41,619 bases of DNA. Source: Curvibacter sp. Its GTDB lineage: Bacteria; Pseudomonadota; Gammaproteobacteria; Burkholderiales; Burkholderiaceae_C. The position numbers and the translations under genes are program-made. Shown here in pieces: positions 2,385-30,745 of this stretch. Location: NCBI GenBank assembly GCA_003987795.1, contig RXJO01000214.1, positions 281 through 41,899 on the forward strand. Direction: 5' to 3'. The first letter of the stretch is position 1, and the number at the start of each line of letters is the position of its first letter. The notes beneath the pieces are model-generated. The model had not been told where the DNA came from. It searched no databases and saw only the letters and a program-made list of their open reading frames with translations.

Positions 2385-3073
2385 AAAAAATCGCCATCGT
2401 TCAATCCAATTACATACCTTGGAAGGGTTATTTCGACTTGATTGCCGCTGTCGATGAATTCATTCTTTACGATGACATGCAATACACACGGCGTGACTGG
2501 CGCAATCGAAACCAAATCAAAACGCCTCAAGGAGTTCAGTGGCTAACGGTTCCTGTGCTGGTGAAAGGTAAGTATCACCAAAAAATCAGAGAGACCGAGA
2601 TTGACGGCACTGACTGGGCTGCTGTACATTGGAAAACCATGGTACAAAATTATCGCCACGCTCCATATTTTCAAGAAATCGCTTTATGGCTTGAGCCGCT
2701 CTACCTCGATAAGAAATACACGTATATTTCGCATCTAAACCGCTGCTTTATTGAAGCCATTTGCAATTATTTAGAAATAAAAACAGTCATAACAAACTCC
2801 TCGGACTACACCTTACTAGATGGAAAGACAGAACGACTTTCTGATCTGTGCATTCAAGTTGGGGGCACCGAGTACATCTCAGGTCCAGCAGCAAAAAACT
2901 ATGTCGACGAAGATATATTCTCAAACAATGGAATCAAGTTAACCTGGTTCGACTACGCCGGATACCCTTCATATCCACAACTTTGGGGTGAATTCACTCA
3001 TGGCGTGACCATCCTTGACCTTCTATTTAATTGCGGTAGAGACGGCTCTCGATATATGAGACATGTAGCATGA
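2381..3073 (+). CDS. WbqC-like family protein
   Basis: [51 protein letters not shown]... is the typical WbqC N-terminal signature. Confidence 0.9.
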
Positions 3074-4005: not shown

Positions 4006-4009
4006 CAAA

Positions 4010-4834
4010 ATGACAAAAATTGCCCCCCCCACCATTCCCACTGATAGCTATGGCGTACTTTTTCGAGACAAGCATGAATCGGAATTTGATGATGTCGCCG
4101 AACAAGTCAGGCGCATCGGCTATGGCATTCTAGATTCAGGCTACTCCATCAAAGAACTAAAGCATCTATCCGAAGCTTTCAATCTGACACGCACCAATTA
4201 TATACAATCTTATGGTGAAATGCGCCTGCGTAGCGCCAAAGAATTCCATACAATTCGGGCTCCGCTAACACATGGAGACCCAGTTTTTGTGCGACTTGCC
4301 ACTAATGAGAAACTTTTGAATGTGGTGCGCAGGTTGATAATTGGAAAATTCATCCTGAATCAGCAAAACGGCATAATTAACCCCCCCCAAAAAAATTACA
4401 ATCAAGGGGCATGGCATAGAGATTTACCTTATCAACATTATATTTCCAACAGCCCCTTAGCTGTTAATGCCTTGTTTTGTGTAGATGACTTTACTTTCGA
4501 AAACGGATCTACTTTCGTGCTGCCGGCGACGCACAAAACGCCTAACTATCCATCGGAGTCATACATTCGGAGAAACGCCTTGCAGATTAAGGCCAAGGCG
4601 GGCCAGTATATCTTATTGGACTGCATGATCTTTCATAGCGGCGGATTTAACGCCACAAATGCAGAACGACGCGCGGTCAATCACGTATATACCATCCCTT
4701 ATTTTAAGCAGCAGATCAATCTTCCCGATCTCCTCCGACATGCCGATCTTAATCAAAATCAAAAAGAGATCTTTGGATTCGATTTTCAAGAATTCACATC
4801 AATTGATAACTATTTAAATGGGAGACCCAGATGA
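4010..4834 (+). CDS. phytanoyl-CoA dioxygenase (PhyH) family Fe(II)/2-oxoglutarate-dependent oxygenase
   Basis: WHRDLPYQHY (HxD) and distal LLDCMIFHSGGFNATNAERRAVNHVYTIPYF (His...Arg) are consistent with a PhyH-type active site. Confidence 0.8.
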   Translation: MTKIAPPTIPTDSYGVLFRDKHESEFDDVAEQVRRIGYGILDSGYSIKELKHLSEAFNLTRTNYIQSYGEMRLRSAKEFHTIRAPLTHGDPVFVRLATNEKLLNVVRRLIIGKFILNQQNGIINPPQKNYNQGAWHRDLPYQHYISNSPLAVNALFCVDDFTFENGSTFVLPATHKTPNYPSESYIRRNALQIKAKAGQYILLDCMIFHSGGFNATNAERRAVNHVYTIPYFKQQINLPDLLRHADLNQNQKEIFGFDFQEFTSIDNYLNGRPR

Positions 4835-4858
4835 GGCACACCTCATCCAAGGAATAAT

Positions 4859-5653
4859 ATGAGCAGCCTACCACCTGGCACCATTCTACAACTGATGTAC
4901 CTAAAAGAGCGCCTAAACAAGCTCAAGCCCGGCCGATTCATAGAAATTGGACCAGGTAGCGGTGAAATATCTGAATTGCTTTTAAAGCTCGGCTGGGAGG
5001 GTGTGTCGTATGATCTTGAGTCGCGCACTGTAGAAAGACTTCAAAGCCGCTTCATTGTACAAATTTCAGAAGGTCGATACAACGCAATAAATGAAGATTT
5101 TCTCAATGTCACCAAAATCAATTTTTGCAAGGTTGACTTAATAATATCGTGCATGGTTATGGAGCATTTGAATGATGACTTAGAAAATAAATTCATGGAG
5201 ATATCTGCCAATCTATTGACAGAAGATGGATTAATGGTGGGTTTGGTTCCAGCATCTCCACGACACTGGGGTATAGAGGACGACATTGCCGGCCATTGCA
5301 GAAGATATACTAGGGATAGTTTGCGCAAGTTGGTAGATAGCAATGGATGGAAAATACTCCATTGCAGCGGATTAACTTATCCTACCTCAAATATACTTCT
5401 TCCAGTATCTAATTTTTTAGTCGGCCGCACCGAAAAAGCCAAACTTGAATTTTCTGATATAGAAAAAACCAAGGCATCCGGAATTCGAGATGTTCGATTT
5501 AAAACCAAATTCCCTAAAGTTCTGAAATTTATACTTAACAAGCATTCTCTAATGCCACTTCACTGGATACAAAAAGCATTCTCCAATTCCAGAAATTCTT
5601 TAATTTTATATTTCGAAGCCTTACCGCCGCAGATTATTCTAAAGGATAAATAA
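4859..5653 (+). CDS. class I SAM-dependent methyltransferase
   Basis: GRFIEIGPGSGEISELLLKLGWEGVSYDLE (SAM motif I) and LIISCMVMEHLND. Confidence 0.83.
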   Translation: MSSLPPGTILQLMYLKERLNKLKPGRFIEIGPGSGEISELLLKLGWEGVSYDLESRTVERLQSRFIVQISEGRYNAINEDFLNVTKINFCKVDLIISCMVMEHLNDDLENKFMEISANLLTEDGLMVGLVPASPRHWGIEDDIAGHCRRYTRDSLRKLVDSNGWKILHCSGLTYPTSNILLPVSNFLVGRTEKAKLEFSDIEKTKASGIRDVRFKTKFPKVLKFILNKHSLMPLHWIQKAFSNSRNSLILYFEALPPQIILKDK

Positions 5654-5655
5654 GA

Positions 5656-6288
5656 GTGCAGACAACCAACTTACTCGTCGACGTTGCGGCATATTATGAA
5701 AGCAAAATTGCCGAATACGGTGATACGCCTCGCGGCGTTGACTGGAATGGTGAAGAAAGTCAAACGGCTAGATTTGCAGAGTTATGCAAAATTATTGACT
5801 CGAACACTACATACTTTTCCCTGAACGATCTGGGTTGTGGCTACGGTGCCTTGTTTGATTATCTACGAGGTAAGTACACAGCATTTACATACCTTGGGGT
5901 AGATGTTTCCCCTGAGATGGTTAAGCTCGCAAAACAAAGAAACATAACCGTCGAAGGAGCTCGTTTCATCAACTCAGATAAGCCAGACAAAATCGCCGAC
6001 TATTGCCTCGCCAGTGGTATTTTCAATGTCCGACTTGGTCGATCGGATACAGAATGGTTTGATTATCTGCAGGGCAACCTGGACATTCTTGACCGAAGCA
6101 GCAGACTTGGCTTTGCTTTTAACTGCCTAACCGCATACTCAGACGAAGACAAAAAGCGTGACTACCTCTATTACGCAGACCCTTGTCGACTGTTTGATTT
6201 ATGCAAGCGCCGCTATTCCAGTCAAGTGGCATTGCTCCATGACTACGGACTTTATGAATTTACGATTCTGGTGAGAAAAATTTCATGA
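5656..6288 (+). CDS. class I SAM-dependent methyltransferase (GTG start)
   Basis: SLNDLGCGYGALFDYLRGKYTAFTYLGVDVSPEMVKLAKQR motif I region; in-operon position. Confidence 0.82.
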   Translation: MQTTNLLVDVAAYYESKIAEYGDTPRGVDWNGEESQTARFAELCKIIDSNTTYFSLNDLGCGYGALFDYLRGKYTAFTYLGVDVSPEMVKLAKQRNITVEGARFINSDKPDKIADYCLASGIFNVRLGRSDTEWFDYLQGNLDILDRSSRLGFAFNCLTAYSDEDKKRDYLYYADPCRLFDLCKRRYSSQVALLHDYGLYEFTILVRKIS

Positions 6289-6950
6289 AAAAGCCACTTG
6301 TTATTTTCGGGTCTGGTGAAATCGCCCAAATTGCACATTACTACTTTAAGACCGACTCCAGTTACGAAGTCGTTGCCTTTACCGTAGATGCTAATTACAT
6401 CAAGAAATTCGAATTTTGTGGACTTCCAGTTATTGCATTTGAAGAGTTGACCAGAAGATACCCACCCGAATTCTATGAAATTTTCATTGCACTTAGTTAC
6501 TCAAACCTGAATGCTCTACGAAAAGAGAAATTTTTCGCTGTAAAGGAAATGGGCTACAAACCAGCAAGCTTCATTAGTTCGCGTGCGACGATCCTTAATG
6601 ATGGGCAAATTGGTGAAAACTGCTTCATTTTTGAAGACAATACCATCCAACCGTTTGTAACGATAGGAAATAACGTGACCTTGTGGAGTGGTAATCACAT
6701 CGGCCATCATTCGGTTATTCACGATCATACTTTCATAGCTTCGCACGTGGTTATCTCTGGTGGAGTAGAAATCGGTGAGCAGTGTTTCATAGGCGTAAAT
6801 GCGACACTGCGTGATCACATTAAAATTGGTGACAAATGTGTTGTAGGAGCTGGAGCGCTTCTACTCGGCGATGCCGAACCTGAAGGCGTATATCTTGGAA
6901 CAGCCAGTGAACGATCAAAGGTACCTAGCACAAGACTGAGAAACATATGA
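6285..6950 (+). CDS. NeuD/PglD-like sugar O-/N-acyltransferase (left-handed beta-helix)
   Basis: N-terminal PLVIFGSGEIAQIAHYYF Rossmann-like segment plus hexapeptide repeats (IGENCFIFEDNTIQPFVTIGNNVTLWSGNHIGHHSVI...VVGAGALL). Confidence 0.86.
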   Translation: MKKPLVIFGSGEIAQIAHYYFKTDSSYEVVAFTVDANYIKKFEFCGLPVIAFEELTRRYPPEFYEIFIALSYSNLNALRKEKFFAVKEMGYKPASFISSRATILNDGQIGENCFIFEDNTIQPFVTIGNNVTLWSGNHIGHHSVIHDHTFIASHVVISGGVEIGEQCFIGVNATLRDHIKIGDKCVVGAGALLLGDAEPEGVYLGTASERSKVPSTRLRNI

Positions 6951-7873
6951 CAAGGCATTGGATAAAACTTGGTCAACTTTATGCTCCCAGCAAAAGTAAC
7001 CGACATCCTAAACTGCTTTCACACGCGGCAAATCCATTAGCGGTCCATATGACAGGAGATATTTATCGCGTCTTTTTTAGTGGTCGTGATGAACAACAGC
7101 GCTCCTCTGTGGGAGCCGTGGATATCGACATTGTTCAGCGGAAAATTATCACTGAACATCACAACCCTTTTTTCGAGAACGGGCCGCTCGGAAGTTTTTA
7201 TTCTGATGGCATAAGCATCGGCAACTGCTATCAAGCGAATGGTATTCGATATATTTTATTCATGGGGTGGCAAAACCCACCAAATAGTCATTGGAGAGGT
7301 GATATCGGTCGCCTGACCTTGACTCCAGAATATACCCTTCAAATGGACAGCAAAGAACCCTTTATGGGGAGCAACTCGACAGATCCGATCAGCCTGTCTT
7401 ACCCGTGGGTGCAAGAACGGCGATCGGGTGGATTTGATATGTGGTACGGATCAACACACTCCTGGGATGCGGGCAATGGGGAGATGCTGCATGTAATTCA
7501 CCATGCCTCTTCTGATGACGGAAACAATTGGATCCGTACTGGCTTATCTGTGCCATACAAAATTGGACTTGCCCAGGCTTTTTCAAGGCCTGCGGTCATG
7601 CTCGATTACAAGGGCGATTTTGAGATGTGGTTTTCTTTTCGTAGCGGTGTTGGCGAGAAATACCGTATAGGTTACGCTCAATCCACTGATGGTAAAAACT
7701 GGACTTTGAACTTGAATAAAGCTGGAATTGACGTCTCTACAAGCGGCTGGGATTCTGAAATGATCGAGTACCCGTTTGTCTTCGATCACAACGGTGCACG
7801 CTACATGCTCTATAACGGTAACGGGTATGGCAGGACTGGATTTGGGTTGGCTGTATTCAAGGATAACACATGA
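6947..7873 (+). CDS. GH43/GH32-like five-bladed beta-propeller protein of the type found in glycan clusters
   Basis: HWIKLGQLYAPS...SHAANPLAV...YRVFFSGRDEQQRSSVGAVDIDI... and repeated blades (DMWYGST, FEMWFSFRSG...YRIGYAQSTDGKNW, YMLYNGNGYG). Confidence 0.75.
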   Translation: MTRHWIKLGQLYAPSKSNRHPKLLSHAANPLAVHMTGDIYRVFFSGRDEQQRSSVGAVDIDIVQRKIITEHHNPFFENGPLGSFYSDGISIGNCYQANGIRYILFMGWQNPPNSHWRGDIGRLTLTPEYTLQMDSKEPFMGSNSTDPISLSYPWVQERRSGGFDMWYGSTHSWDAGNGEMLHVIHHASSDDGNNWIRTGLSVPYKIGLAQAFSRPAVMLDYKGDFEMWFSFRSGVGEKYRIGYAQSTDGKNWTLNLNKAGIDVSTSGWDSEMIEYPFVFDHNGARYMLYNGNGYGRTGFGLAVFKDNT

Positions 7874-8244
7874 ATCGGTACTTAGACTATCTTTATATAC
7901 TCGCAACCATCGGCTTTACCGTATATGGACAATTAATCTTAAAGTGGCGAATTGTGCAATTTGGTTCGCTACCGGTAGATTTCTCGGAAAAGATCAAGTT
8001 TTTATTTGGACTTTTTATCGATCCGGCAATATTTACAGGCTTCACGTGCGGATTTCTAGCCTCGCTTACATGGATGGCAGCCATGACAAAATTTGATCTA
8101 AGTCATGCCTACCCTTTTTTGAGTCTTAATTTTGCTGTAGTTTTGCTCCTAAGTAGTTGGTTGTTAAGCGAGCCTTTGACTTTTCAGAAAGCTCTAGGTG
8201 TGGGGCTGATCATTGTTGGTACGATGGTGGCAGCTCATGGCTAA
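7870..8244 (+). CDS. small EamA/SMR-like 4-TM transporter, putative lipid-linked sugar flippase (ArnE/ArnF-like)
   Basis: 124 aa, four hydrophobic segments, ends AYPFLSLNFAVVLLLSSWLLSEPLTFQKALGVGLIIVGTMVAAHG typical of EamA/SMR half-transporters. Confidence 0.8.
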   Translation: MNRYLDYLYILATIGFTVYGQLILKWRIVQFGSLPVDFSEKIKFLFGLFIDPAIFTGFTCGFLASLTWMAAMTKFDLSHAYPFLSLNFAVVLLLSSWLLSEPLTFQKALGVGLIIVGTMVAAHG

Positions 8245-9868
8245 CTCGCTCTACTCAATTCCAAGCAAAAAAAAATCTCTGTTATTTTCTAGTTTTTTAA
8301 TTTCCTCTTCGATAATATTTATCTTTTGCTTTTTTTTTAATCCTCACTGGGAAACTAATGATGATGTTGCGATGTCCATGGTTGCACATGGCTATGGTAT
8401 TGCCGCAGTTGGCATGCCCAATTTAGTTTTTTCCAATGTCATTTGGGGCTATTTAGTTCGGTCGATACCCAAAATTTACGGTGTACTAGGATATTCTAGT
8501 GCAAGTATTAGCGTGCTTGTGATCATAGGCACAGTGTTATTACACGCTCTACGAAAGTTAGGTCTTGCTTGGCTGCTATCGTTGCCCCTATTATTACTCA
8601 TACTGGTACGCCCTGTACTTTTTCCACAATTCACAATAAATGCTGGACTACTTACTGTAGGGGCCATTGTTTGCTGGTATTTCTATGAACAGGAGGGTGA
8701 TAAGCGATCACTCGTGATCGGGTGCTGCCTTGCCTTCCTCGGTTACATCATTCGTAGCCAGCAATTTTTGATGGTTCTATTGATATCGGCGCCCCTTCTT
8801 CCCTGGTCAAAATTATTAAAAGATAGCAAGGTCATATTTTTTACATTCGCTCTCATTTTTGCAATTTGCACCGCAATCCTTATCGATCAATACGCGTATC
8901 AGAGCGATGATTGGCAGGCATTTAAGAAGTTAAATCCAGCCCGTGCTTATATTACTGATTTTGGATTTGATGTTTTACTTAAACAGCGACCAGATATTCT
9001 TTTCCAAAATGGTTACACACAGAACGACATCAATCTATTACACTCTTGGTTTTTCGTTGATACAGAATTAGCAAATCCCAGCCACTTAATCGACATGATT
9101 AATAAACTGGGACCAACTCCAGGGCAAAGTCATTTACTCACAAATGGCTTGCTAGGCATAAAAGCATTTGCAGATCCTGTTTTATTTTCAACTTTCATTG
9201 TTGCAATTCTACTACTATTCGCCTTACCAAGCCGCAAGCTGCTTTTAGTTTGGATACTTACTTTATTGGCCGTCTTCGGCTTAGGACTGTTGGGTCGACC
9301 AGGAATTTTAAGAGTTTATATTCCCCTACTTTCAATGCTGTTGATTGCACCATTTTTACAAAAGGGCTATGGGGCTTCAGCGCATCTTCCATTTCTACTG
9401 CGCTGCTCTTTAATAGGAATTATCACAGCAGGGGCATTCTTCAATCTAATAACAGTACTCTCTCAATCGAAAGTTGCTCAAGTAGATTCGGAGGTGGTGC
9501 ACCATGACTTAAATTGGTTTCCAGAGGAAACTGTTGTGTTATGGGGTTCCTCATTTCCTTATGAGTCAGCCTACCCTGTCCTGTGGACAGAGGAGTCGAT
9601 GAAACCATTAAAACTATACGGATTGGGGACTTTTACTCTTACGCCATTTTCAGTGGCATATCAGGAATCATCTAATGGGCGCGGCATGCTCGATAGATTA
9701 TTTTCCAATGACGGAATTCCGATTTTAGCTCAACCATATCTTCTTGAATACTTAAGGATTTATTGCCTTGAACACTTTGATGGACGCCTTCAAGAACTCG
9801 GCGAACAGAAATTTGGACCACTTCACATTAGCAGGCAACGGTGCGATAAAAAAATCAAACCCAGATAA
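8237..9868 (+). CDS. polytopic membrane protein, putative GT-C-like glycosyltransferase
   Basis: Start at MANSLYSIPSKKK (8237) overlaps the upstream stop by 8 bp; about 540 aa with many TM segments and a short soluble C-terminus. Confidence 0.7.
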   Translation: MANSLYSIPSKKKSLLFSSFLISSSIIFIFCFFFNPHWETNDDVAMSMVAHGYGIAAVGMPNLVFSNVIWGYLVRSIPKIYGVLGYSSASISVLVIIGTVLLHALRKLGLAWLLSLPLLLLILVRPVLFPQFTINAGLLTVGAIVCWYFYEQEGDKRSLVIGCCLAFLGYIIRSQQFLMVLLISAPLLPWSKLLKDSKVIFFTFALIFAICTAILIDQYAYQSDDWQAFKKLNPARAYITDFGFDVLLKQRPDILFQNGYTQNDINLLHSWFFVDTELANPSHLIDMINKLGPTPGQSHLLTNGLLGIKAFADPVLFSTFIVAILLLFALPSRKLLLVWILTLLAVFGLGLLGRPGILRVYIPLLSMLLIAPFLQKGYGASAHLPFLLRCSLIGIITAGAFFNLITVLSQSKVAQVDSEVVHHDLNWFPEETVVLWGSSFPYESAYPVLWTEESMKPLKLYGLGTFTLTPFSVAYQESSNGRGMLDRLFSNDGIPILAQPYLLEYLRIYCLEHFDGRLQELGEQKFGPLHISRQRCDKKIKPR

Positions 9869-15464: not shown

Positions 15465-17354
15465 TCAACCCCCGAACTGGCGCGCGTGCCAGCGCGTGAA
15501 GTTGATCCAACGCCAGACCTGCCAGCTGAAGGGACGCTGGCCAGCCACGACCTGATCGAAGGCCTTGAGGATTTCGTCTTGGCGCAAGAAAGGCAGGTTC
15601 AGCGGCTGGCGCAGCCAATCGCGCACCTGGGGAGCCATCTGCATCAGCCAATCCTTTTCCGGTGTGGCAAAACCGATCTTGTCGCGACGATTCAAGATCT
15701 CATCCGGGACCAGCCCTCTCATGGCGCGCCTGAGCAAGTGCTTGGTCTCTCCATTGGGAGCCACCAGATAGTCCTCCGGCAACGTCAGCAGAAAATCCGC
15801 AAGCGCCGTGGTCAGGAAGGGGACTCGGCTTTCCACGGAAAAGCGCATGGAATTTCGGTCGCCATGGCGCAGTAGCCCGGGCAGACCCAGCCCGTGCAGC
15901 GAACGAGCCAGTTCGGCAGCCATGCGCCTTCCCGGCGCTGACAAGAATGGTCGGTGCAGTGGAAAGCGTGGCAATACGCCAGCCTCGCCCAGCATGTTGC
16001 CATCAAGCCAGGACGGCGATAACTGCGCACCATTGAGCTGTCTCAGCAACTGGTAGGCGCCGTCGCCCAAGAACTCGGCCACCGCGGCCTTCAATCCATC
16101 CATCGGTGTTCGCCCAGGCCATTGACCCCAAGCCTTGAGAAAGGCTGCGGCGTGGCCCCAGTGCCCCAGCTCCAGCAGGCTGCGAATGCGCGGCCCCGGA
16201 TAGCCGACATAGCCGCCACAGAGCTCATCGGCGCCCTGGCCATCCAGCGTGACGACCATGCCGTGTTCACGCGCCAATCTGAAGACCCTGTACTGGGCAT
16301 ATATGCTGGTACTGCCGAAAGGCTCGCCCTGGGCGACGATCAGGTCATCGAGGTCCGCGGCAAGCTCCTGGGGCTCGATTTCCAGCTTGTGTGCCGTGGC
16401 GCCGGCCTTGTCATTGACAAGATCGACCCAGCGCTCCTCAGACACCGCGCTGCCCGACGCGATAAAACTGAAGGTATGCAGCGTGGCATCAGGCTCCAAA
16501 TGACGCATGCAGGCCACGATGGCCGAGGAATCCAGACCGCCTGACAGCGCGGCGCCCAATGGCACATCGCTGCGCAATTGCAGACGCACACTGTCCAATA
16601 GCAGGCGCCGCAGCTCTTCGGCGGCCTCGTCCAGCGACAGGCGCTGCACGGGCGCAATCGTCGGCTGCCACCATGCGCTCAACGTCAATTCGCCACTGCC
16701 GGTGTCGTAGCAAAAACGGTGGCCTGCGGGCAATTCGTGGACCTCTTTGAAAAATGTGCGTGTCCCGGTGTCATAGCTGCCATGCAGCAGATAGTCATAA
16801 GCAGACTGCCAGTCCAGCGTTGGCTTGTTTGGCCGAAGTGCGAGTAGCGCTGGGATCTCCGATGCAAAGCCAAAGCCCTGGGTATCGACGTGATAGTAGA
16901 GCGGTTTGATACCGAAGGCATCCCGTGCCCCATGCAATTGCCGGGTCTGCCGATCCAACAGCACAAACGAGAACATTCCGATCAGGCGTGGCAATGTTGC
17001 CGCCCCCCAAACCTCCCATGCTTGCAACAGCACCTCGGTATCCGAAGTGGATCGAAATTGCCGTCCCATAGCTTGTAGCTCACGCCTTAGCTCACGGTAG
17101 TTGTAAATTTCGCCGTTGAAGACCATGCAGAAACGCCCATCGCTGCTCCACATGGGCTGATGACCCGCAGCACTCAGATCGATGACCGCCAGCCTGCGCT
17201 GGGCCAGCGCAATCGTCCAACCGTCCAGCCCAAACAATTCGCGGCCTTCGTCGTCTGGTCCTCGCCGTTGCATGAGCTCCAAACTGGCCTGCAAACGTCG
17301 CTCGAGCATCAAAGCATCAAGACCAGCCCATGCTCCTCCTCCAATACCGCACAT
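15465..17354 (-). CDS. asnB: asparagine synthase (glutamine-hydrolysing)-like amidotransferase
   Basis: MCGIGGGAW (Cys2 nucleophile), RGPDDEG, VFNGEIYNYRELR, ALSGGLDSSAIVACM PP-loop; 629 aa. Confidence 0.92.
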   Translation of the reverse strand: MCGIGGGAWAGLDALMLERRLQASLELMQRRGPDDEGRELFGLDGWTIALAQRRLAVIDLSAAGHQPMWSSDGRFCMVFNGEIYNYRELRRELQAMGRQFRSTSDTEVLLQAWEVWGAATLPRLIGMFSFVLLDRQTRQLHGARDAFGIKPLYYHVDTQGFGFASEIPALLALRPNKPTLDWQSAYDYLLHGSYDTGTRTFFKEVHELPAGHRFCYDTGSGELTLSAWWQPTIAPVQRLSLDEAAEELRRLLLDSVRLQLRSDVPLGAALSGGLDSSAIVACMRHLEPDATLHTFSFIASGSAVSEERWVDLVNDKAGATAHKLEIEPQELAADLDDLIVAQGEPFGSTSIYAQYRVFRLAREHGMVVTLDGQGADELCGGYVGYPGPRIRSLLELGHWGHAAAFLKAWGQWPGRTPMDGLKAAVAEFLGDGAYQLLRQLNGAQLSPSWLDGNMLGEAGVLPRFPLHRPFLSAPGRRMAAELARSLHGLGLPGLLRHGDRNSMRFSVESRVPFLTTALADFLLTLPEDYLVAPNGETKHLLRRAMRGLVPDEILNRRDKIGFATPEKDWLMQMAPQVRDWLRQPLNLPFLRQDEILKAFDQVVAGQRPFSWQVWRWINFTRWHARQFGG

Positions 17355-17366
17355 GCCGTATCCCTA

Positions 17367-18146
17367 TCAGTTGGTACTATCCAACACGGACTCGTGTGCG
17401 CCAGCGTTGTGCAACGCAAGGCACTCCTCCAAGCCGCCCTCATGCACGATCCGCCCTTCGGACATCACAATGCCTTTGGAGCAGAAGGCCCGCAGAATGT
17501 CTTCGTTATGGGAAGCCAGTACCAGAATCTCCACCTGGCTCATCAGCTTTCCCAGCCGGGAATGCGCCCGCTCTATGAACTGGGAATCGCCCACCCCGAT
17601 CATCTCGTCCATCAACAGGATATCTGGAACCACGGCCGTGGACACTGCGAATGCCAAGCGCAACAGCATGCCGGTGGAGTATGAGCGCACTGGCAGATGC
17701 AAGTAGTCGCCCAACTCGGTAAAGGCCTCCACGTCGGGGAACAGATTGCGGGCCTGGCTCTTGGTCAGTCCCATGACAATGCCTCGCGTCACGACGAAAT
17801 CATAGCCACTGGCCTCGGGATCAACGCCCAGCATCAAGTCTGTAAGCGCCGATATCTTGCCACTAGAGTGAATCTCGCCTCGCTCGGGTTCATAAACGCC
17901 CGACATAACGCGCAGCATCGTTGTCTTGCCCGCCCCATTGCGACCGATCAAGGCGACGCGATCACCGGCCTTCAACTGCATCGTGATATCTCTCAACGCG
18001 TGAACAGTCACTCCAGCCCCCCCTTTGGACTCAATCCGGCGTTGGACAGAGCGATCGAAACGCAGCAAAGAATTGATCAATCCACGCGACTGCGAGGAAA
18101 AAATGGGGAAGTCCACGCTGACGCTGGACATTTCAAGATGGGCCAT
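17367..18146 (-). CDS. wzt: polysaccharide ABC transporter ATP-binding protein (Wzt/KpsT-like), no C-terminal carbohydrate-binding domain
   Basis: Start MAHLEMSSVSVDFPIF (18146); GRNGAGKTTMLRVMSGVYEPERGEI Walker A, RSYSTGMLLRLAFAVSTAVVPDILLMDEMIGVGD signature/Walker B. Confidence 0.92.
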   Translation of the reverse strand: MAHLEMSSVSVDFPIFSSQSRGLINSLLRFDRSVQRRIESKGGAGVTVHALRDITMQLKAGDRVALIGRNGAGKTTMLRVMSGVYEPERGEIHSSGKISALTDLMLGVDPEASGYDFVVTRGIVMGLTKSQARNLFPDVEAFTELGDYLHLPVRSYSTGMLLRLAFAVSTAVVPDILLMDEMIGVGDSQFIERAHSRLGKLMSQVEILVLASHNEDILRAFCSKGIVMSEGRIVHEGGLEECLALHNAGAHESVLDSTN

Positions 18147-18153
18147 GGTTCGC

Positions 18154-18945
18154 TCAAATCCAGTACACAATCCTGCGCCGGCCCAGCACATAGAGCACAA
18201 GACACAGCACGGAAAGCACAAACAAGGTGACAAGCACCAAGCCCAAGGCGGCCATCGAGGGCATGGCGCCAAGCATTGGTGCTCTGATCAGCTCCAAAAT
18301 GGCAGCCAAAGGGTTCAGCCGCGCGGCAAGCTGAGCACGATCCGTCAGTTGCTCCGGACGCCACATCACCGGCGTCACGAAGAACGCGATCTGCATGACA
18401 CTGGTCACAATCATCGGCACATCGCGAAATCTTGCTGCGATCAGGCCCAGAATCGCGACTGCCAAAGTAGAACAATATACCAGTGCTAGTGCCCCAAGCA
18501 AGAGCCAGCCTAAACGTATCTGCCCCAACCCTGAAGTGAATCCGATGACCAGGATGACGACGGGAAAATTATGTGCAAATAAAAGCACATTGCGCCACAC
18601 CACTCGAAAAATAAAAGCAAACTTTGGGAAGGGTGCCTGCTTCAGATAAGGCTCTGCCTGCATGAAAACCTGGCAACCCTCATTGATCAGCAGCGAAATA
18701 TAGGTAAATACAACATGCCCCACACACAGATAGGGAAGATATTCATGCACCCCGGATTTAAAAAGCTGAGCCCCGATCAATCCAAAAACAAAAATGAACA
18801 ACCCAGTATTCAGGGTAATCCATATCGGCCCCAGTATAGAGCGTCGGTATTGTCGTGCCACATCCTCCCAGCCAAGATGAACCCAGAAACGCCAGATACG
18901 CAATGAGTCCCACACATCTTTATATAACTTATGCAGTTGCATCAT
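18154..18945 (-). CDS. wzm: polysaccharide ABC transporter permease (Wzm/KpsM-like)
   Basis: LGWEDVARQYRRSILGPIWITLNTGLFIFVFGLIGAQLFKSGVHEYLPYLCVGHVVFTYIS typical ABC-2 polysaccharide permease; start at MMQLHKLYKDVW is more plausible than the track start 18975. Confidence 0.9.
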   Translation of the reverse strand: MMQLHKLYKDVWDSLRIWRFWVHLGWEDVARQYRRSILGPIWITLNTGLFIFVFGLIGAQLFKSGVHEYLPYLCVGHVVFTYISLLINEGCQVFMQAEPYLKQAPFPKFAFIFRVVWRNVLLFAHNFPVVILVIGFTSGLGQIRLGWLLLGALALVYCSTLAVAILGLIAARFRDVPMIVTSVMQIAFFVTPVMWRPEQLTDRAQLAARLNPLAAILELIRAPMLGAMPSMAALGLVLVTLFVLSVLCLVLYVLGRRRIVYWI

Positions 18946-19732
18946 TGAAACCCCCAAAACACCCACCATCAACATTCTTTGTAAAAGCCATTTTTGAGCG
19001 ACATCTTGTGATCAGCAGTACACCTTAATTTCAGCATGTGAGTCTACGGCCACCTAGCCTCTATTTCCGCCCTAACGCCAGTTGACTCAGTAAACATACA
19101 TAGATTGAATTTTCCAGAGTGCTGCAGTCTGTTCATATCGCTTAGTCACGTCTCCTTACATAGTCGAAATGCTGTTGAACTTGACAAACAACTCCTTCCG
19201 CGCCAGCGACAACTAGCCGAGTTAGATCACTTTTCTGCAAGCCCATTCTCGATACCGGCCAGCAATACGCTCGCCTCCATGGCTCGATAAATGATGTACG
19301 CCAAAGCCATTTTATTTCGACCTCATGATGGAACATTTATCAAAACAACGGCATGTCGGCGGATAAATTTCAAAAAATTCCATGTATCGAATCACTTTCA
19401 TTACTCCGCCAACCCAGATCTTCTCCTCATCCGCGTCATAGTCGGCGGTCCTTCGAAAAGGATAGAGGCATAGTTACAGGGCTCATTGGCCTCATCCATT
19501 CAGCATCCTCCACCTTTGCGCATTTACAGGCAATAGATATTTCCCGTTCCATATTTAGTTGTGTTACCGCCCCTAATGTCACATGAGAGTTTTCCAAAAT
19601 AAGCGCCATTGACACCTGTGCCGTTTCAGCGAAAAAATAACATCACAGTCCCGGCATACTGAATCACTTGAACGGATTTTTGACGATGAAAATCAACAGG
19701 CATGACGATACTCATTCATAGTGTGGAATCCA

Positions 19733-22282
19733 TCAATCCGGCAAACGAGTAAGAAATGCTTTTTTTAACGTTAGGCGTGAAATCCCATAACGTTCAATAC
19801 CAATGCGCATCAACTGCACGCCCTCAGGCATGCGCATGCGACGTTTAAACATCAAAGAGGGTATCTGTGGCGAAAGCACGAAGTCACCAGCAAAATATGG
19901 CCCCGACCATCTCTCGACATTCGGCTCCCTCATCCATACCAATACTTTATTGAAACCCTCTCCTTCCACATCAAGGTTAATCACATACTCTTTTCCCGGG
20001 ATAACATGAACGAGTTGCTCTATATTCCCCTCCAGCAAGCCATTGGAATCGCCATCACCCACCTCCAGAATATGACTATAGCTTTTAGCCAAAAGGCTGG
20101 AGTGTGACTCGGAAGTGGCTGGCAATTGTACAGTGCGAGAGAATTCTCCCTGAAGTGCAAAGGCTGGCCCTCCTACGCCAATACGTGGATATTCTCGCCA
20201 TGGAAGAGCCGATAAGTCTATCTTCGAGGACTCGACCTCATTAAAATCAGCTATCGGCAGACTCTTTAATGCATATAGCTGGCTAAATTTCGCATCTTGC
20301 ACAAGAACAGTCAACCGCGGGTCGCTTATTAAATCCATCAAAGCCGAGTTATTCACTGGAGGAATGAAATAATCAGGAACCTGAATGTAACCAACCCCCG
20401 ATTTATGCAATTGCTCAAATAGCTGGCGCGCATCTTTACACCCATACATGGGAACCATGATCGGATCGAGATAACTTACCATTTTGCGCCGCGCATAATA
20501 CATGTCGGCAGGCCTGATAGCGAGAACGAGTGCCTCAGGCGAAATATATGCATGCATATTCTGGGCTATCTTTATCCCATTCAAGTTGGCCAGCGGATCT
20601 TTGCGCATCGATATTTCCAGAGACATCGATGATTCAGGGCGCCTAATATCCAGCAACTGCGCCCACTGAGCCAGATTACCGTAGAGCAAGAATGCACAGG
20701 CATGTCCAATAAGCAAAACGGCAACCACTGCCACCAGAGCCCCGCTCCTCAAGTTAATGCCAGCTTGGGCATAGAGTGACATGCTGCAACTATGTATAAC
20801 TCTGGCAATCCCACTTGCGGCCAGCAGAGCAATAGGTGGAGTGACCACCAGAAAATAGCGATCATTCTTGATCATGAGATCCGTGCCTATGAGCATGGAT
20901 GCGAGTACACCTGCGTGATATATGACAAGCACTGCTAGAGAAACAAGCAGAAATCCATCGCCTTCATCCATGGAACGCATATAGCGTACATCTTTCAGCC
21001 AACGCCCGAGCATTCCGGTAAAAATGAGATAAACAAATGCCAAGCCGCCTAGCCAGAAAACAAACCCATAATTATGTACAGCCACCAGCCCTTTGAGTAG
21101 CCCATACTGCAAACGGGTTCCCCAGTTATAGATGGAGCGTGTATATCTAAAATATCCGGCCCAGTCCAAACTAGGCAAAGAAAAAACTTCCGGATTATCT
21201 GAAATCGGAACTCCATAGATTTCCATATTGTGCAAATACGGATATCCAGCCACTATAAGCACCACTACCAAGGCTAGACTCACCACCCTCAGGGATATTT
21301 TCCAATTCGCCACACCACCCGTTGCAAATAAAACCACCACCACAATAGGAAGATACAGAATCACCTGCGAATGCGTCCATAATCCAAGCCCAACCAGTAA
21401 ACCAATATAGATGGGAGTCAACCAATTTTTTCGCTCCAAGCCTACGAGACTCAACATAAGCAAAACCATCCCGGCCACGGGTAAGGCATCGATCGCGGCA
21501 TTCTCTGAACCGATGGCTAGCAGTGGGACGCCAATAAATAGAATACCGGCAAGCCAGGCCGTACGTACGCCTTGTAAGCGCCCCATCCCGATAACGCCAG
21601 CTGCTGCTGACAGCATGAACCAGGGTGCGATGAGCTTCATCCATCCTGCGATTTCGGCGCTTCCCTGCAATGCATATGCGACATAGATCAACGAAGAATA
21701 AAGCGGCGGGTGGGTCCAGGGAGCAAAAAAACCCGAAGCCGAAGCGCTGGTATCCAGCAGCGGGTATACGGAAAGGCTGCGAGCGTCATAGATAGCCCGG
21801 CCTACCAATCCATACTCAAGCGCGTCGTTTTCCGCGAGTGGCAGCTTCGCCGCCAGAAAAATCACATCAACCACGCATAGAAGAAAAATTGACACCAGAA
21901 GCCAATCGCTGAATTTTCTGATTTCCGCCGGTCGATCGGCTTTTCGCCATCGTGATTTTTTCGTAGCTAGCAAAAAGGCAACGACCAAAAGACCAAGAGC
22001 CAAATAGCGCAAATGAATATGTGGTGATACACCACCAAACACAACAAGAGTCAGTATTGTGCAGAGCCCCAATATAAATGGACCCAAGGCAAGGGCAAGC
22101 GGCCAGGCAAGGCAATAAAAATGAGTACTGCTGCGCCAGGGCGCCAAACGCACAACCCCATAGCCCACCCCCGTGGACAGCAGAATAAAAATGATAAAAT
22201 CAACCATCAATGCAACGCCCAACCGAAATAAAATTATGCAAAATTCAGCCCTTGCAAATAATTTTTCTACAAAGCATGCCAC
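19733..22282 (-). CDS. large polytopic membrane protein, putative GT-C/PMT-like glycosyltransferase
   Basis: 849 aa; N-terminal about 550 aa hydrophobic with PLAENDALEYGLVGRAIYDARSLSVYPLLDTS (acidic motif in first loop) followed by a soluble C-terminal domain. Start uncertain (a later Met is possible). Confidence 0.75.
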   Translation of the reverse strand: MACFVEKLFARAEFCIILFRLGVALMVDFIIFILLSTGVGYGVVRLAPWRSSTHFYCLAWPLALALGPFILGLCTILTLVVFGGVSPHIHLRYLALGLLVVAFLLATKKSRWRKADRPAEIRKFSDWLLVSIFLLCVVDVIFLAAKLPLAENDALEYGLVGRAIYDARSLSVYPLLDTSASASGFFAPWTHPPLYSSLIYVAYALQGSAEIAGWMKLIAPWFMLSAAAGVIGMGRLQGVRTAWLAGILFIGVPLLAIGSENAAIDALPVAGMVLLMLSLVGLERKNWLTPIYIGLLVGLGLWTHSQVILYLPIVVVVLFATGGVANWKISLRVVSLALVVVLIVAGYPYLHNMEIYGVPISDNPEVFSLPSLDWAGYFRYTRSIYNWGTRLQYGLLKGLVAVHNYGFVFWLGGLAFVYLIFTGMLGRWLKDVRYMRSMDEGDGFLLVSLAVLVIYHAGVLASMLIGTDLMIKNDRYFLVVTPPIALLAASGIARVIHSCSMSLYAQAGINLRSGALVAVVAVLLIGHACAFLLYGNLAQWAQLLDIRRPESSMSLEISMRKDPLANLNGIKIAQNMHAYISPEALVLAIRPADMYYARRKMVSYLDPIMVPMYGCKDARQLFEQLHKSGVGYIQVPDYFIPPVNNSALMDLISDPRLTVLVQDAKFSQLYALKSLPIADFNEVESSKIDLSALPWREYPRIGVGGPAFALQGEFSRTVQLPATSESHSSLLAKSYSHILEVGDGDSNGLLEGNIEQLVHVIPGKEYVINLDVEGEGFNKVLVWMREPNVERWSGPYFAGDFVLSPQIPSLMFKRRMRMPEGVQLMRIGIERYGISRLTLKKAFLTRLPD

Positions 22283-22496: not shown

Positions 22497-24446
22497 TCAA
22501 TACATTTTTTTCACATTATCAATGATGCGCATGACAATATTAAAATCCACACCTATAATAGAACAGTATTCATGGATCGACGCAATGCGCGGCTGATTCT
22601 CCAAATAGACCAATCGCAGCGCCTCATCTCGGGAAATAACACCCTCCCGAATTTGATTGCTGCGAAAGGTCTCATACTCACTAAATCCGGCGATTGTTTG
22701 ATAAATATAGTTATAGAACGGGGCAGTACCGTCGCCAATCCGCCAACTAGTCGGAGTATCTTTTGCAAGCTCCCACCCGTACTCACCAATCAGTGTACGG
22801 TTGATTTCCTGTTCATCCCAAGAAATATAATCAAACAAATAAAGAAAATCCTGCCTCACAAAATAGTAAGAAAGAAATGCCGTAAAAGTATCGCCCAGAG
22901 ATTTATTTATATAACCCGGATTGAGGAGGTAATTTTTCAAATAATAAGCCACCATCCTTGCTTTGGACAGGAAGGACATTCGATTCAGCCGTATCCCGGC
23001 CGACGCAGGTGCTACCCCACAAAACCCCGTCTTGAAGTCTGTACGCTCATAGTGGTTCGTGGAATACACCATCAGACGGATATCCGTCTCCTTCATGAGC
23101 CGATTGGCGTGCCACATGAACTGTTTGTCTCCAGCCATGAAGAGCGGCACCATTCCCAAATCGGGACGCCGTAACCATGCCTCCACATTACGCCGAACAT
23201 TTTTTCGCTTGGCTTTGATATCTGCAGAAACCCAGATGTGTTCGACGCCCAGCCTGCCACATAGCCTAGCCTGATTGCGGCGAGCCAAGTCGGTCACCAT
23301 TCCCCAGTCATATGTGTACGCAATTGGGTTCATTCCATAGCGTGTCTTCAACAGATGCAGGCCATAACTGCTGTCGCGTCCTCCGCTGAAGCCGACCAAG
23401 CAATCGGGTTCGCCGTTATTGCTACGGTACTGGTCCAACAGTCGCAGCAGCGCCCCTTCGCCTGCCAGCGACTGGCGTTGATAGTTGCGGCAGTAGTTGC
23501 AGACGCCATCGGCATCGAACTTGATGAAAGGCATGGTCTCGGGGAGGATGCAACATGTGCATCGCCGCATACTGCGCCAGCGCTGTTGCACCAGATCCTT
23601 GCTGAGGGTGATGGTGCGTTGGCCGGGCTCCGTTGACACGGTATCTTGCATGGCTACGGCCGCTGCCGCATCGCTTCCCACTGAAAAATGGAGCCCAGGC
23701 TCTGCCGTGGCTAGGTCAATCAATACAGCGGTATTGGCCTTGAGCTGTTTCACCGTGCACGTCTTCCAACTGCCCCCCATCTGTTGTATGACCTTGCGGG
23801 CAATGGCCGCCTCCGAGCAATAGAAAGCCACTTTTCGCGATGCGTCCGCCACGAGGAACAGCGATCCGGTGTTGGTGGCCAGCAGCATGCTCTGCCTGGC
23901 AGAAAACAGCACGGCAAGCGAGGCTTCACCATAGATGCGGCCAAACACAGACGAGGTGGCACTTGCTAAGGAGACACCAGAAGAAATGGCTTGGTCCAGC
24001 ATGGCTGCCACGACCTCCGTGTCCACCTCCGTCTCCTTCACCAAGGCCGGCTGTTGTGCCCAGAGTTGCGGCTCGTTGACGATGATGCCGTTGTGAACGC
24101 AAACCACACCGCCCTTGACCACAGGCTGGTTGTTGGCATCGATGCCTTGCAGCCCGTTCGTCACAAGCCTCGCATGTCCGATCACAGCAAGGGCACCAGC
24201 AACCGGCAGCTCTAATTGAACAAGTGCATCGTCCCGAAACCGTTGGTACTCCTCATGGGCCAGCAATTCCGATGCAGGCAATGCCTTACGGATAACCCGA
24301 ATATCGGAGCCAGAACAGAACGCGGCGCCTGCAGCCTCCTTGCCCCGAGATTCCGATCTCAGAAACAACCGGGTCAGAAGTAGGTCGAATTCTCCGCGGC
24401 CAATGTCGCTACCCGCGCCGGCCACCACTCCAAAAATGCCACACAT
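22497..24446 (-). CDS. fusion protein: N-terminal class II (Ntn/GlmS-PurF type) glutamine amidotransferase + WbpG/PseA-like N-acetyl-sugar amidotransferase PP-loop ATPase
   Basis: MCGIFGVVAG (Cys2), GHARLVTNG, VVCVHNGIIVN glutaminase motifs; then CTCCILPETMPFIKFDADGVCNYC Zn-ribbon-like and DCLVGFSGGRDSSYGLHLLKTRYG PP-loop. Confidence 0.85.
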   Translation of the reverse strand: MCGIFGVVAGAGSDIGRGEFDLLLTRLFLRSESRGKEAAGAAFCSGSDIRVIRKALPASELLAHEEYQRFRDDALVQLELPVAGALAVIGHARLVTNGLQGIDANNQPVVKGGVVCVHNGIIVNEPQLWAQQPALVKETEVDTEVVAAMLDQAISSGVSLASATSSVFGRIYGEASLAVLFSARQSMLLATNTGSLFLVADASRKVAFYCSEAAIARKVIQQMGGSWKTCTVKQLKANTAVLIDLATAEPGLHFSVGSDAAAAVAMQDTVSTEPGQRTITLSKDLVQQRWRSMRRCTCCILPETMPFIKFDADGVCNYCRNYQRQSLAGEGALLRLLDQYRSNNGEPDCLVGFSGGRDSSYGLHLLKTRYGMNPIAYTYDWGMVTDLARRNQARLCGRLGVEHIWVSADIKAKRKNVRRNVEAWLRRPDLGMVPLFMAGDKQFMWHANRLMKETDIRLMVYSTNHYERTDFKTGFCGVAPASAGIRLNRMSFLSKARMVAYYLKNYLLNPGYINKSLGDTFTAFLSYYFVRQDFLYLFDYISWDEQEINRTLIGEYGWELAKDTPTSWRIGDGTAPFYNYIYQTIAGFSEYETFRSNQIREGVISRDEALRLVYLENQPRIASIHEYCSIIGVDFNIVMRIIDNVKKMY

Positions 24447-24448
24447 GT

Positions 24449-25765
24449 CTAAGCCCTAAAAGTATTCGACAGCAGATTCCAGCCGTGAATTCGCCTGGTG
24501 AGATAGATCAGCATCGCTGCTCCGGCCACGTAGCTCGCTGCCGTCCCTGCGGCGGCACCCGCCATCCCGAATGAAGGCAGCAACGCCGCTGCTACCAGCA
24601 CATTGGCACCCACGGTTGCCATCTGCTGGACCGTCTGGTAGCCCGGGTGCCCCGACACCATCATGAGATTGTCGAAAGGCACCAGGAAAGACACCGCGAC
24701 AAGTGCACACAGCAATACGGCGAGCGATAGAAACCCCTCCATGAGTCCCTTGGACGGCATGACGAAGGTAGCAAACAGGTAATAGCCAATCAGCAGCCCG
24801 GCAGCTAGCACCAGCGCTGTCGGCAGTACGTAGGCTGCGGATTGTCGCCTTAGCTTGACCATCGCGCCACGCTCCCCGTCGCGCATGGCTGCAACCATCA
24901 TGGGATTGAAGTTGATACGGACCATGGCCAGCACCTGGTAGAGGCCATCCACCAACATCACTGCAAAGCTGTAGACCCCGGTTTCCCTTTCAGAGAGGAA
25001 AAAGCCGATCATCAGCACATCCACACGAGAATTGATCTCCGAGAACATGCCTGCCACCAAGCCCGTGGAACCAAACCGGTAGTGCGTGAGTGCCCACGAG
25101 CGAGTGAACCCCGGCGTTCCCGCGAGTCTGTTCCGGACAATGAACGCCATCACGGCTATCGTCGTACCTGCTTCGGCCACGACAAAGCACAGGGTTAGTG
25201 TCTCGGCAGGCATGGAGGTGGCGGCAATGCCTGCGACCAGCAGCATGACCACGAGGTAGCGCTGAGCCTGCAGCACGGAGAACGCCTTCATGGCCCGCAG
25301 TCCGTTGAGATAGGCCAGGAGCACCTTGTTGAGAGGGAAAACCAACAGCCCTAACGCCGAATTACCGATGGCCCGGGCCGTCACTTCACTTTGGAAGATG
25401 ATCAAGAACAATGGCTCTGCCAGCACGACACCGATAGCGGCCAGCAGCCCCATGCCCAGGGCGCAGACGCCAGCTGTCCACAACATCCGACTGCGTTCGG
25501 ACGCATCGTCTTGGTGGTAGGCCGTGTGCCTCAACACAGAGTAGTGCAAGCCCCACACCGCAAACTGCGAAGTGAGAATATATACGGCATAGGCAATGTT
25601 GAAGACCCCCAATGTGGCCACATCACGCTGTGCAGTGACAACGATGTTGATGACGATACCGCTGATGGCCAGCACTACGAAACTGCCTAAGCTATACGCT
25701 ATGTCCTGGGACAGTTTCTGGTGGCGCAGGCTGTGCAACAGTTGCGCGCTCAGGGCCCGAATCAT
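24449..25765 (-). CDS. MOP-superfamily polysaccharide flippase (Wzx-like)
   Basis: 438 aa, about 12-14 hydrophobic segments, MATE/Wzx-like pattern (YSLGSFVVLAISGIVINIVVTAQRDVATLGVFNIAYAVYIL). Confidence 0.82.
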   Translation of the reverse strand: MIRALSAQLLHSLRHQKLSQDIAYSLGSFVVLAISGIVINIVVTAQRDVATLGVFNIAYAVYILTSQFAVWGLHYSVLRHTAYHQDDASERSRMLWTAGVCALGMGLLAAIGVVLAEPLFLIIFQSEVTARAIGNSALGLLVFPLNKVLLAYLNGLRAMKAFSVLQAQRYLVVMLLVAGIAATSMPAETLTLCFVVAEAGTTIAVMAFIVRNRLAGTPGFTRSWALTHYRFGSTGLVAGMFSEINSRVDVLMIGFFLSERETGVYSFAVMLVDGLYQVLAMVRINFNPMMVAAMRDGERGAMVKLRRQSAAYVLPTALVLAAGLLIGYYLFATFVMPSKGLMEGFLSLAVLLCALVAVSFLVPFDNLMMVSGHPGYQTVQQMATVGANVLVAAALLPSFGMAGAAAGTAASYVAGAAMLIYLTRRIHGWNLLSNTFRA

Positions 25766-26760
25766 GCCAGTGTGGAGCGCTTGTTGGCGGTGTCGCGGTG
25801 TTTGAGCGGGGGATTCAGGTGCTTGTTTTCGTCATAGTCGAACCACATGGCGAAGAACAGCGAGTTGAAACCCAGTGAGAAGGAAAACAGCCAACTCAGG
25901 AACGTGATTTCCGGCACATGACCCAGATTGAACCACAGCCACATCAGGCGCAGAAACATTAACGCACTGAGCCCTACACCAAAGAAGCCGAAGGCATAGA
26001 AGAACACCAGCGGATGGAAGTTGCGAATGATGTACTTTTCCTTGAGCCGCCAGAAAAACAGACGCACAAGCAAGGAACCGATGGTAAAGACTACCTTGCG
26101 CACCTGGATGCCCGATTTCTCGCCCACGTTGTACACCGGCTCTATGGGCACATCAACCACACGCATTCCGGCCACGTTGAGCTTGACCAGCAAGTCATTT
26201 GGCTGTCCGTAGCGCTTGTACATCCGATCCCAGTTGATGGTTTGCAACGCCGTCTGGTTGAGGGCTGTGTAGCCCGTCTGCGAGTCCGCCACATGCCAGT
26301 ACCCCGAAGCGATTTTGGTGAAAAGTGACAGGGCGGCATTGCCGAAAAAGCGAATTTTCGGAATCTTGCGGAATGCCTCTCCCGTGACTAGCCGATTGCC
26401 CTTGGTGTAGTCGGCCTCATCATCCACCACGGGATCAAGTATGGCAGGTAGATCATCCGGATCCATCTGCCCGTCGCCGGCCATGACAACAGCTATGTCG
26501 TAGTTATGATCACGCGCCCATTTGTAGCCCGTGGCAATCGCTCCGCCAACCCCCTGGTTCACTTCGTGCTCCAGCAAGGTGACTTTGCCGGCTGCATATC
26601 CAGGATGGGCTCTGATGACTTCGGACGTTCGGTCCTTGCTGCAATCGTTCGTGATGACGATCATGTCCACGAAATCTGGCATGGTCTCTATCACGCGGGC
26701 AATCTGGGTTTCTTCGTTGTATGCAGGCACAACAACAACGATTTTTTTCTCTCTGTACAT
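25762..26760 (-). CDS. glycosyltransferase family 2 (DPM1/polyprenyl-P type) with C-terminal TM segments
   Basis: MYREKKIVVVVPAYNEETQIARVIETMPDFVDMIVITNDCSKDRTSE...VVMAGDGQMDPDDLP; ATGA overlap with flippase gene. Confidence 0.92.
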   Translation of the reverse strand: MYREKKIVVVVPAYNEETQIARVIETMPDFVDMIVITNDCSKDRTSEVIRAHPGYAAGKVTLLEHEVNQGVGGAIATGYKWARDHNYDIAVVMAGDGQMDPDDLPAILDPVVDDEADYTKGNRLVTGEAFRKIPKIRFFGNAALSLFTKIASGYWHVADSQTGYTALNQTALQTINWDRMYKRYGQPNDLLVKLNVAGMRVVDVPIEPVYNVGEKSGIQVRKVVFTIGSLLVRLFFWRLKEKYIIRNFHPLVFFYAFGFFGVGLSALMFLRLMWLWFNLGHVPEITFLSWLFSFSLGFNSLFFAMWFDYDENKHLNPPLKHRDTANKRSTLA

Positions 26761-26776: not shown

Positions 26777-27900
26777 TCAGATGGATGCCATGGCTGCGAC
26801 GACGCGACTCAGGTCCTGATCGCTGAGATCGGCGCTCATGGGAAGGCTCATGACCCGGTCTGCGGCCCAATGGCTGTGAGGCGTTTCCAGCGCCGACTGA
26901 TCATCGCGGTAGGCCGGCTGCCGGTTCAGGGCCAATGGATAGTGGACTGCCGTGGGAATTCCCATTCCTTGGAGCTTTTGCTGAACCACGGCCCTGTCCT
27001 CCACGAGAACTGTAAATTGGGCCCAGACGCAATCCCTGTTCTCGCGGACGGAAATAAGCCTTGCGGCACATCCTGCCTCCTTGAGCTTCTGGCGATATGT
27101 TCTTCCCAGCTCCAGGCGGCGCTGGATCTCCCAATCGAAGCGCTGCAGTTTGCCCAAGATGACTGCGCATTGGATCGTATCCATGCGCCCCCCTACGCCG
27201 ATGCGCGTATGGTGATAGCGCCGCTCCTGCCCATGCACCCTTATTTCGCGTAACACCTTTGCCAATGCATCGTCGTTGGTGAACACTGCACCGCCATCGC
27301 CATAGCAGCCCAATGGCTTGCTGGGAAAGAAGCTGGTGCATCCGACAGTGGAGAGATTGCAGCTTCTGCGCCCCTTGTAGCTGGAGCCGAAACTCTGGGC
27401 AGCATCCTCGATGACGCTCAAACCATGCACCTGTGCGATGGCGTTGATCTCATCCATATCAGCAACCTGTCCATAGAGCGATACTGGCATGATTGCCTTG
27501 GTTCGCGGAGTGATCTTGGCCTCAATCTGCGCGGCATCGATCAGGCAGGTGTCGGGCTCGATATCCACATAGACCGGCTTGGCTCCGGCGAGCACGATCA
27601 TCTCCGCAGTCGCCGCGAATGTGAATGGAGTGGTGATCACTTCATCACCGGGGCCTATGCCTAGCGCAAGGAGCGCCATCAATAGAGCTTCGGTCCCGGA
27701 GGCACAGCTGATGCAGTGCCGGGCTCCGGTATAGGCCGCGAGTTGCGCCTCCATCTCACCAACCTCCGGCCCCAGGATGTATTGGCCATGCTCCAGCACT
27801 CGTTGAATCCGCGCATCGATATCTTTTCGAAGCACACGGTACTGGGCCTTGAGATCAATGAATTCCATGCGCTCGACGGCGGATTGCGGCAGATTGGCAG

Positions 27901-27904
<4 letters not shown>
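26777..27904 (-). CDS. wlbC: DegT/DnrJ/EryC1 aminotransferase (WlbC/WbpE: UDP-3-oxo-GlcNAcA transaminase)
   Basis: [84 protein letters not shown]...[25 protein letters not shown] start at 27904 or internal ATG at 27868. Confidence 0.92.

Positions 27905-30745
<2,841 letters not shown>

Follow-up and report, generated by a model that had tools for sequence, protein, structure and literature searches.

A glutaminase-WbuX-like fusion protein as a probable self-contained sugar amidotransferase, encoded beside glycosyltransferase and flippase genes

Results

The locus

The window under analysis, a stretch of 41,619 nucleotides from Curvibacter sp. (contig RXJO01000214.1), contains a gene in which a class II glutaminase is joined to a WbuX-like PP-loop amidotransferase (Table 1). 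The open reading frame is intact, with an ATG start and no internal stop codons. The Wlb genes, the GT2 gene, the flippase gene and the fusion gene form one close-packed, co-directional run, in which the UGDH, WlbA, WlbB and WlbC genes precede GT2 with 4-bp overlaps or short gaps. On the other side of the fusion gene lies the gene for a polytopic membrane protein. No family match was found for this protein itself, and its structure model was poor (pLDDT 58); its homologue in locus L025 matched PMT_2 (E 2.5e-4).

The fusion gene is absent from 149 relatives of the window's genome, and the GC content of the island (43–61%) is lower than that of the right-hand flank (67–69%). Horizontal acquisition of the island is therefore likely. 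A separate low-GC cluster (43%) with WbqC-like, PhyH, methyltransferase and hexapeptide genes is found on the plus strand of the window (546–9868), and probably represents a different acquisition. AsnB-type genes recur near fusions, in 11/76 loci including the window, and two are present on plasmid pDCAR1.

Table 1. Features of the fusion gene and its neighbors in the window.
Feature	Position	Strand	Evidence
Fusion gene, class II glutaminase + WbuX-like PP-loop amidotransferase, 649 aa	22497..24446	-	Profile matches, conservation, AlphaFold, Foldseek
N-terminal Ntn glutaminase domain, residues 1 to ~245 (C2, R93, N119-G120, D142)	23712..24446	-	Pfam/NCBIfam, conservation, Foldseek 1xff TMt 0.77
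Linker region, residues ~256-292, partly of low model confidence	23571..23681	-	pLDDT <50 at residues 268-278
C-terminal amidotransferase domain, residues 293-649	22500..23570	-	TIGR03573 residues 293-632; 8wex
Tetracysteine C296xxC299...C316xxC319, predicted zinc site	23490..23561	-	65/65 conserved; zinc in LpNASAT (PMC10607449)
PP-loop SGGRDSS, residues 354-360	23367..23387	-	S-G-G-x-D-S in 65/65
MOP-type flippase of a rare, fusion-linked family	24449..25765	-	Pfam Polysacc_synt_3; neighbor survey
GT2 glycosyltransferase, polyprenyl-monophosphate sugar synthase-like, hydrophobic C-terminal part	25762..26760	-	Profile matches; neighbor survey
WlbC/WbpE-like aminotransferase	26777..27904	-	DegT_DnrJ_EryC1
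WlbB/WbpD-like acetyltransferase	27901..28494	-	Hexapep
WlbA/WbpB-like dehydrogenase	28491..29441	-	GFO_IDH_MocA
UDP-GlcNAc 6-dehydrogenase-like (UGDH)	29450..30745	-	TviB model 568 bits, just below cut-off 592
Polytopic membrane protein, tentatively GT-C glycosyltransferase	19733..22282	-	12 hydrophobic segments; L025 homologue
Wzm-like ABC exporter permease	18154..18975	-	Profile matches
Wzt-like ABC exporter ATPase; true start probably downstream of ORF start	17367..18272	-	Profile matches
Separate AsnB-type amidotransferase	15465..17354	-	No detectable BLASTP similarity to fusion

Domain architecture of the fusion protein

An earlier note, made from this DNA sequence alone, had described an intact Ntn glutaminase, a CX2C...CNYC cluster and a SGGRDSS loop on one polypeptide, and had advised that the two halves be identified separately. 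Both the reading frame and the motifs bear out the description: the protein begins with M1-C2 and carries GHARLVTNG (90–98), HNGIIVN (118–124), C296xxC299...C316NYC319 and SGGRDSS (354–360). Profile searches and Foldseek identified the N-terminal half as a GlmS-type glutaminase and the C-terminal half as a WbuX-type domain related to 8wex. The Pfam models GATase_7 and GATase_6 matched residues 87–208 above their gathering scores, NCBIfam GlmS/PRK00331 matched residues 1–217, and TIGR03573 (WbuX) gave 135 bits (E 3e-39). The Asn_synthase domain (PF00733) was absent from the C-terminal half in the Pfam search. Among PDB sequences, the relatives of the fusion were LpNASAT (8wex, E 1.6e-15) and the GlmS glutaminase.

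An AlphaFold model computed from 65 sequences had a pLDDT of 93 and a pTM of 0.93, with residues 268–278 as the loose stretch. Foldseek with this model returned GlmS, AsnB-type proteins and 8wex; against single-domain targets, TMt was 0.77 for the glutaminase domain (1xff) and about 0.6 for 8wex. Assignment of the glutaminase to the Ntn class II fold, unrelated to HisH, is thus supported. Zinc is present in LpNASAT (PMC10607449), and the tetracysteine of the fusion is a predicted zinc site.

Distribution and conservation of the fusion family

A survey seeded with peptide patterns taken from the window's protein found about 70 glutaminase-WbuX-like fusions in many bacterial phyla and in archaea. 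The 75 fusion-clade loci on genome contigs come from Pseudomonadota, Bacteroidota, Bacillota, Planctomycetota, Myxococcota, Chloroflexota, Actinomycetota, candidate phyla and archaea. In phage records, the fusion found GlmS-type matches over its N-terminal part only.

Both the WbuX and the GlmS-type models matched 65/65 full-length fusions. The four cysteines (CxxC...[GN]xCxxC) and S-G-G-x-D-S were present in all 65, as was D142, while C2, R93 and N119 were kept in 64/65 and G120 in 64–65/65. The sole exception in the glutaminase residue set is L063 (187–1983), which combines C2S, R93G and N119S, and whose glutaminase domain is apparently dead as judged from these substitutions. Four other members (L059, L062, L066 and L076) consist of the C-terminal domain alone, and a search for a glutaminase remnant beside these genes found none. 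HisH was not found in 4/5 of the genomes with a dead or missing glutaminase, the fifth, that of L062, having one. Free ammonia or another donor may serve such proteins.

Several individual records deserve mention. In L074 (3025–4960), from a single-cell genome, the coding sequence is split between two overlapping frames, one for the glutaminase and one for the amidotransferase; this probably reflects a sequencing error, because the close relative L072 has one open reading frame. The Ignavibacteriaceae genome of L019 has a second WbuX-type match (G544:C21:341888–342916) with a fusion-clade-like score in a 405-aa frame. Two C-terminal ORFs of odd length, L129:4420 and L132:685, were rejected as further fusions, as they look like read-through of upstream frames. 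L132:13521–15602 and L140:604–3021 read as single-ORF HisF-WbuX fusions, each close to a HisH gene, and on sequence grounds would be a third way in which the sugar amidotransferase system is built. The fusion on plasmid pDCAR1 (L164:12001–13965) is named 7-cyano-7-deazaguanine synthase in RefSeq, a likely misannotation. The family is widespread and misnamed, as 7-cyano-7-deazaguanine synthase, glucosamine 6-phosphate synthetase or hypothetical protein.

Absence of HisH and HisF partners

The earlier note had proposed that an unrelated glutaminase fold supplies ammonia where HisH2 and HisF2 are missing, and had suggested a survey of gene neighborhoods. That survey separates the two kinds of gene: of the stand-alone WbuX genes in the fetched loci, 34/43 have HisH as well as HisF no more than 6 kb away, compared with 1/76 fusion-clade genes (Fisher p about 3e-20, with related genomes taken as independent and with control loci from a single phylum and with shorter flanks). 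The one fusion-clade locus with both genes, L039, also carries a separate WbuX. Beyond 6 kb, HisH occurs in L037, which comes from a genome with a separate WbuX on that contig, and in L053. One HisH and one HisF are encoded in the window's genome, both in the his operon beside hisB and hisA, and a search of that genome for HisH2/HisF2 beyond this operon found none.

HisH was also sought in 17 fusion-clade genomes, many of them metagenome-assembled and of unknown completeness, so that absence is weak evidence for any single one: none was found in 8, one in 7 and two in 2. The two genomes with two copies also hold a stand-alone WbuX at most 2 kb from one of them. The proposal of the earlier note agrees with these counts, and the fusion is very probably a glutamine-dependent amidotransferase that works without HisH and HisF. 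In L130 (6347 and 11495; genome G172) and in L039 (10001 and 15175), a fusion shares its locus with a stand-alone WbuX and the HisH/HisF of the latter, which suggests different substrates.

Linkage to a GT2 glycosyltransferase and a flippase

Neighbor clustering identified GT2 and the flippase as the genes nearest to the fusion. With profile models built from the fusion loci, the fusion-linked GT2 group scored 335–523 bits, compared with at most 140 for other GT2s, and almost all of the flippase group scored above 435. Of the fusion-clade genes, 37/76 have either gene or both no more than 6 kb away, compared with 0/43 stand-alone WbuX genes, whose loci come from one phylum and have shorter flanks; about half of the fusion-clade loci have neither nearby. 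At least 33/75 fusion-clade genomes encode the flippase, 28 of them within the fetched loci and 5 elsewhere in the genome, compared with 0/398 other Pseudomonadota when the best few candidates per genome were scored. GT2 orthologues above 300 bits were found in 2/398 control Pseudomonadota. On pDCAR1, which was outside the set used to build the models, a GT2 orthologue lies directly upstream of the fusion.

When the GT2 profile was compared with the PDB, dolichol-P-mannose synthase was the closest match, and ArnC and GtrB scored lower. Because chondroitin synthase was also among the matches, a role as polyprenyl-phosphate sugar synthase is likely rather than proven. Linkage to such a GT2 and to a rare flippase points to a cell-surface pathway.

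Relation to stand-alone WbuX

The WbuX score of the fusion falls below the curated cut-off of TIGR03573 (203 bits), as do those of the other fusions. Among 399 Pseudomonadota sampled, the 54 WbuX matches were made of 51 at 233 bits or more and 3 fusions at 133–137 bits. Because the scores of the fusions fall below the cut-off, the C-terminal domain is a sister family rather than WbuX/WbpG itself. In a tree of 122 C-terminal domains, stand-alone WbuX and fusion-type sequences were split by a long branch with 99% support. As the tree is unrooted, it suggests, but does not demonstrate, that the fusion arose once. The four C-terminal-only members sit at separate places within the fusion side, a scatter that fits later losses of the glutaminase.

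Residues common to both sides include the four cysteines, SGGxDS, N391, E467, G587 and R606. Others are specific to the fusions: the stretch 376–383 (AYTYDWGM), GDK (439–441), W568, and E590, which is R or K in WbuX. Since many residues conserved in the fusion clade differ, E590 included, the substrate and product of WbuX cannot be assumed for the fusions. Of the label "WbpG-like" given in the earlier note, the homology stands, whereas identity of substrate and product does not follow.

Candidate substrates

The earlier note had also taken the substrate of the fusion to be a nucleotide sugar that the neighboring Wlb genes produce. In its full form, the enzyme would make a 3-acetamidino sugar from UDP-2,3-diacetamido-uronic acid, doing the job of WbpG, HisH2 and HisF2, and would have no special link to GT2 or the flippase. 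We regard this explanation as doubtful. As a general rule it is not supported by the survey, in which two Wlb-type genes or more were found no further than 6 kb away in 6/78 fusion-clade loci (and for 1/44 WbuX genes), against 37/76 for the recurrent GT2, the flippase or both, and the many fusion-specific residues unlike WbuX also speak against it. In the window itself a Wlb-made sugar is a possible substrate, because the Wlb genes share one run with GT2, the flippase and the fusion, and because in a Sphingomonas surface-polysaccharide cluster, which has sugar genes of these kinds together with a gene for an exosortase-associated amidotransferase, WbuX, HisF2 and HisH take the place of the fusion (PMC11340318). 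Transposon insertions in that cluster change colony morphology (PMC11340318). A 10-row subclade that includes 604–610-aa forms and some Clostridia (L051-L053, L055-L057, L063, L066, L130 and L131) adds to the Wlb side: 5/10 of its loci have a minimum of two Wlb-type genes within 10 kb, compared with 6/68 of the others (p 0.004, a comparison chosen after inspection of the tree), and neither GT2 nor the flippase is nearby.

Two other chemistries were weighed. Interpretation of the fusion as AsnB was rejected because of its domain identity, and conversion of a uronic-acid carboxylate to the amide (a uronamide) by an AsnB-like enzyme is improbable: the order of parts is that of asparagine synthetase and uronic-acid genes adjoin the fusion, but the C-terminal domain is WbuX-type with a tetracysteine instead of Asn_synthase, the cluster already has a true AsnB-type gene, and many fusion loci lack nearby uronic-acid genes. 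A non-sugar substrate, such as a queuosine-type base or a lipid head group, is very improbable indeed. Weak QueC, LarE and TilS matches, which come from the common PP-loop fold, and the RefSeq name of the pDCAR1 member would speak for it; against them, WbuX is the strongest match to the C-terminal domain, present in 65/65, and glycan genes abound in the loci examined.

The reading that we prefer, with a probability of about 0.6, is that the fusion is a self-contained glutamine-dependent sugar amidotransferase whose substrate belongs to the GT2/flippase module. For its parts, placement of the substrate within the GT2/flippase pathway is evenly balanced, and an acetamidino product is, by our analysis, slightly favored.

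Discussion

Proposed mechanism

In the reaction that we envisage, Met1 would be removed and Cys2 of the GlmS-type domain, whose residues are conserved, would hydrolyze glutamine. Ammonia would then move inside the protein, through a putative channel, to the C-terminal domain, thus replacing the HisH-HisF pair, whose genes are absent from the neighborhood. There, ATP would be cleaved to AMP and PPi by the tetracysteine PP-loop domain, which would thereby activate a carbonyl oxygen of the sugar for replacement by nitrogen, most likely turning an N-acetyl into an acetamidino group, as homology to WbuX/WbpG suggests. The substrate would be a sugar of the conserved module formed by a GT2 resembling polyprenyl-phosphate-sugar synthases and a dedicated flippase; the genes are linked, and the order of the steps is presumed. 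In the window, a candidate for it is the 2,3-diamino-uronic-acid sugar that the Wlb genes would make. We place the fusion, by inference, at a step where a sugar is amidated in connection with polyprenyl-phosphate sugar transfer.

A rather unlikely extension is that the fusion, GT2 and the flippase together form the center of an unrecognized pathway in which polyprenyl-phosphate-linked amidine sugars are moved across the membrane and give surface glycans positive charge, much like the ArnC/ArnT route, which decorates with aminoarabinose.

We found neither a description of the fusion nor any biochemistry for a member in the openly licensed literature. Papers on Bordetella wbm and on b-Cool were considered as prior descriptions and set aside; the passages available from them name no such fusion. 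If active as predicted, the protein would be a natural one-protein replacement of WbpG-HisH2-HisF2 by means of an unrelated glutaminase. The lack of HisF in such a system suggests that HisF conducts ammonia and takes no part in the chemistry on the sugar. One polypeptide would also be easier to reconstitute than a three-protein system.

Comparison with known systems

WbuX, WbpG and PseA (TIGR03573; LpNASAT, 8wex, PMC10607449) have the same C-terminal fold, with the residues listed above; they are stand-alone proteins paired with separate HisH and HisF, whereas the fusions lie below the TIGR03573 cut-off and beyond a long branch. GlmS and PurF have the same N-terminal Ntn glutaminase with its Cys, R, N-G and D residues, but their partner domain is an isomerase or a phosphoribosyltransferase instead of a PP-loop amidotransferase. 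Asparagine synthetase B and beta-lactam synthetase share the order of parts, a class II-type glutaminase fold followed by a PP-loop ATPase; the fusion differs from asparagine synthetase B in that its C-terminal domain is outside the Asn_synthase family and carries a zinc-type tetracysteine, and in that its glutaminase matches GlmS best. Functional parallels are WbpG, HisH2 and HisF2 of Pseudomonas aeruginosa O5 and WbuX, HisF2 and HisH of Sphingomonas (PMC11340318), where the same presumed sugar amidation is encoded beside Wlb-type UDP-sugar genes. Those systems employ three proteins and a class I glutaminase; the fusion, whose glutaminase is of class II and which lacks HisF, probably does alone what these well-studied bacteria do with three proteins.
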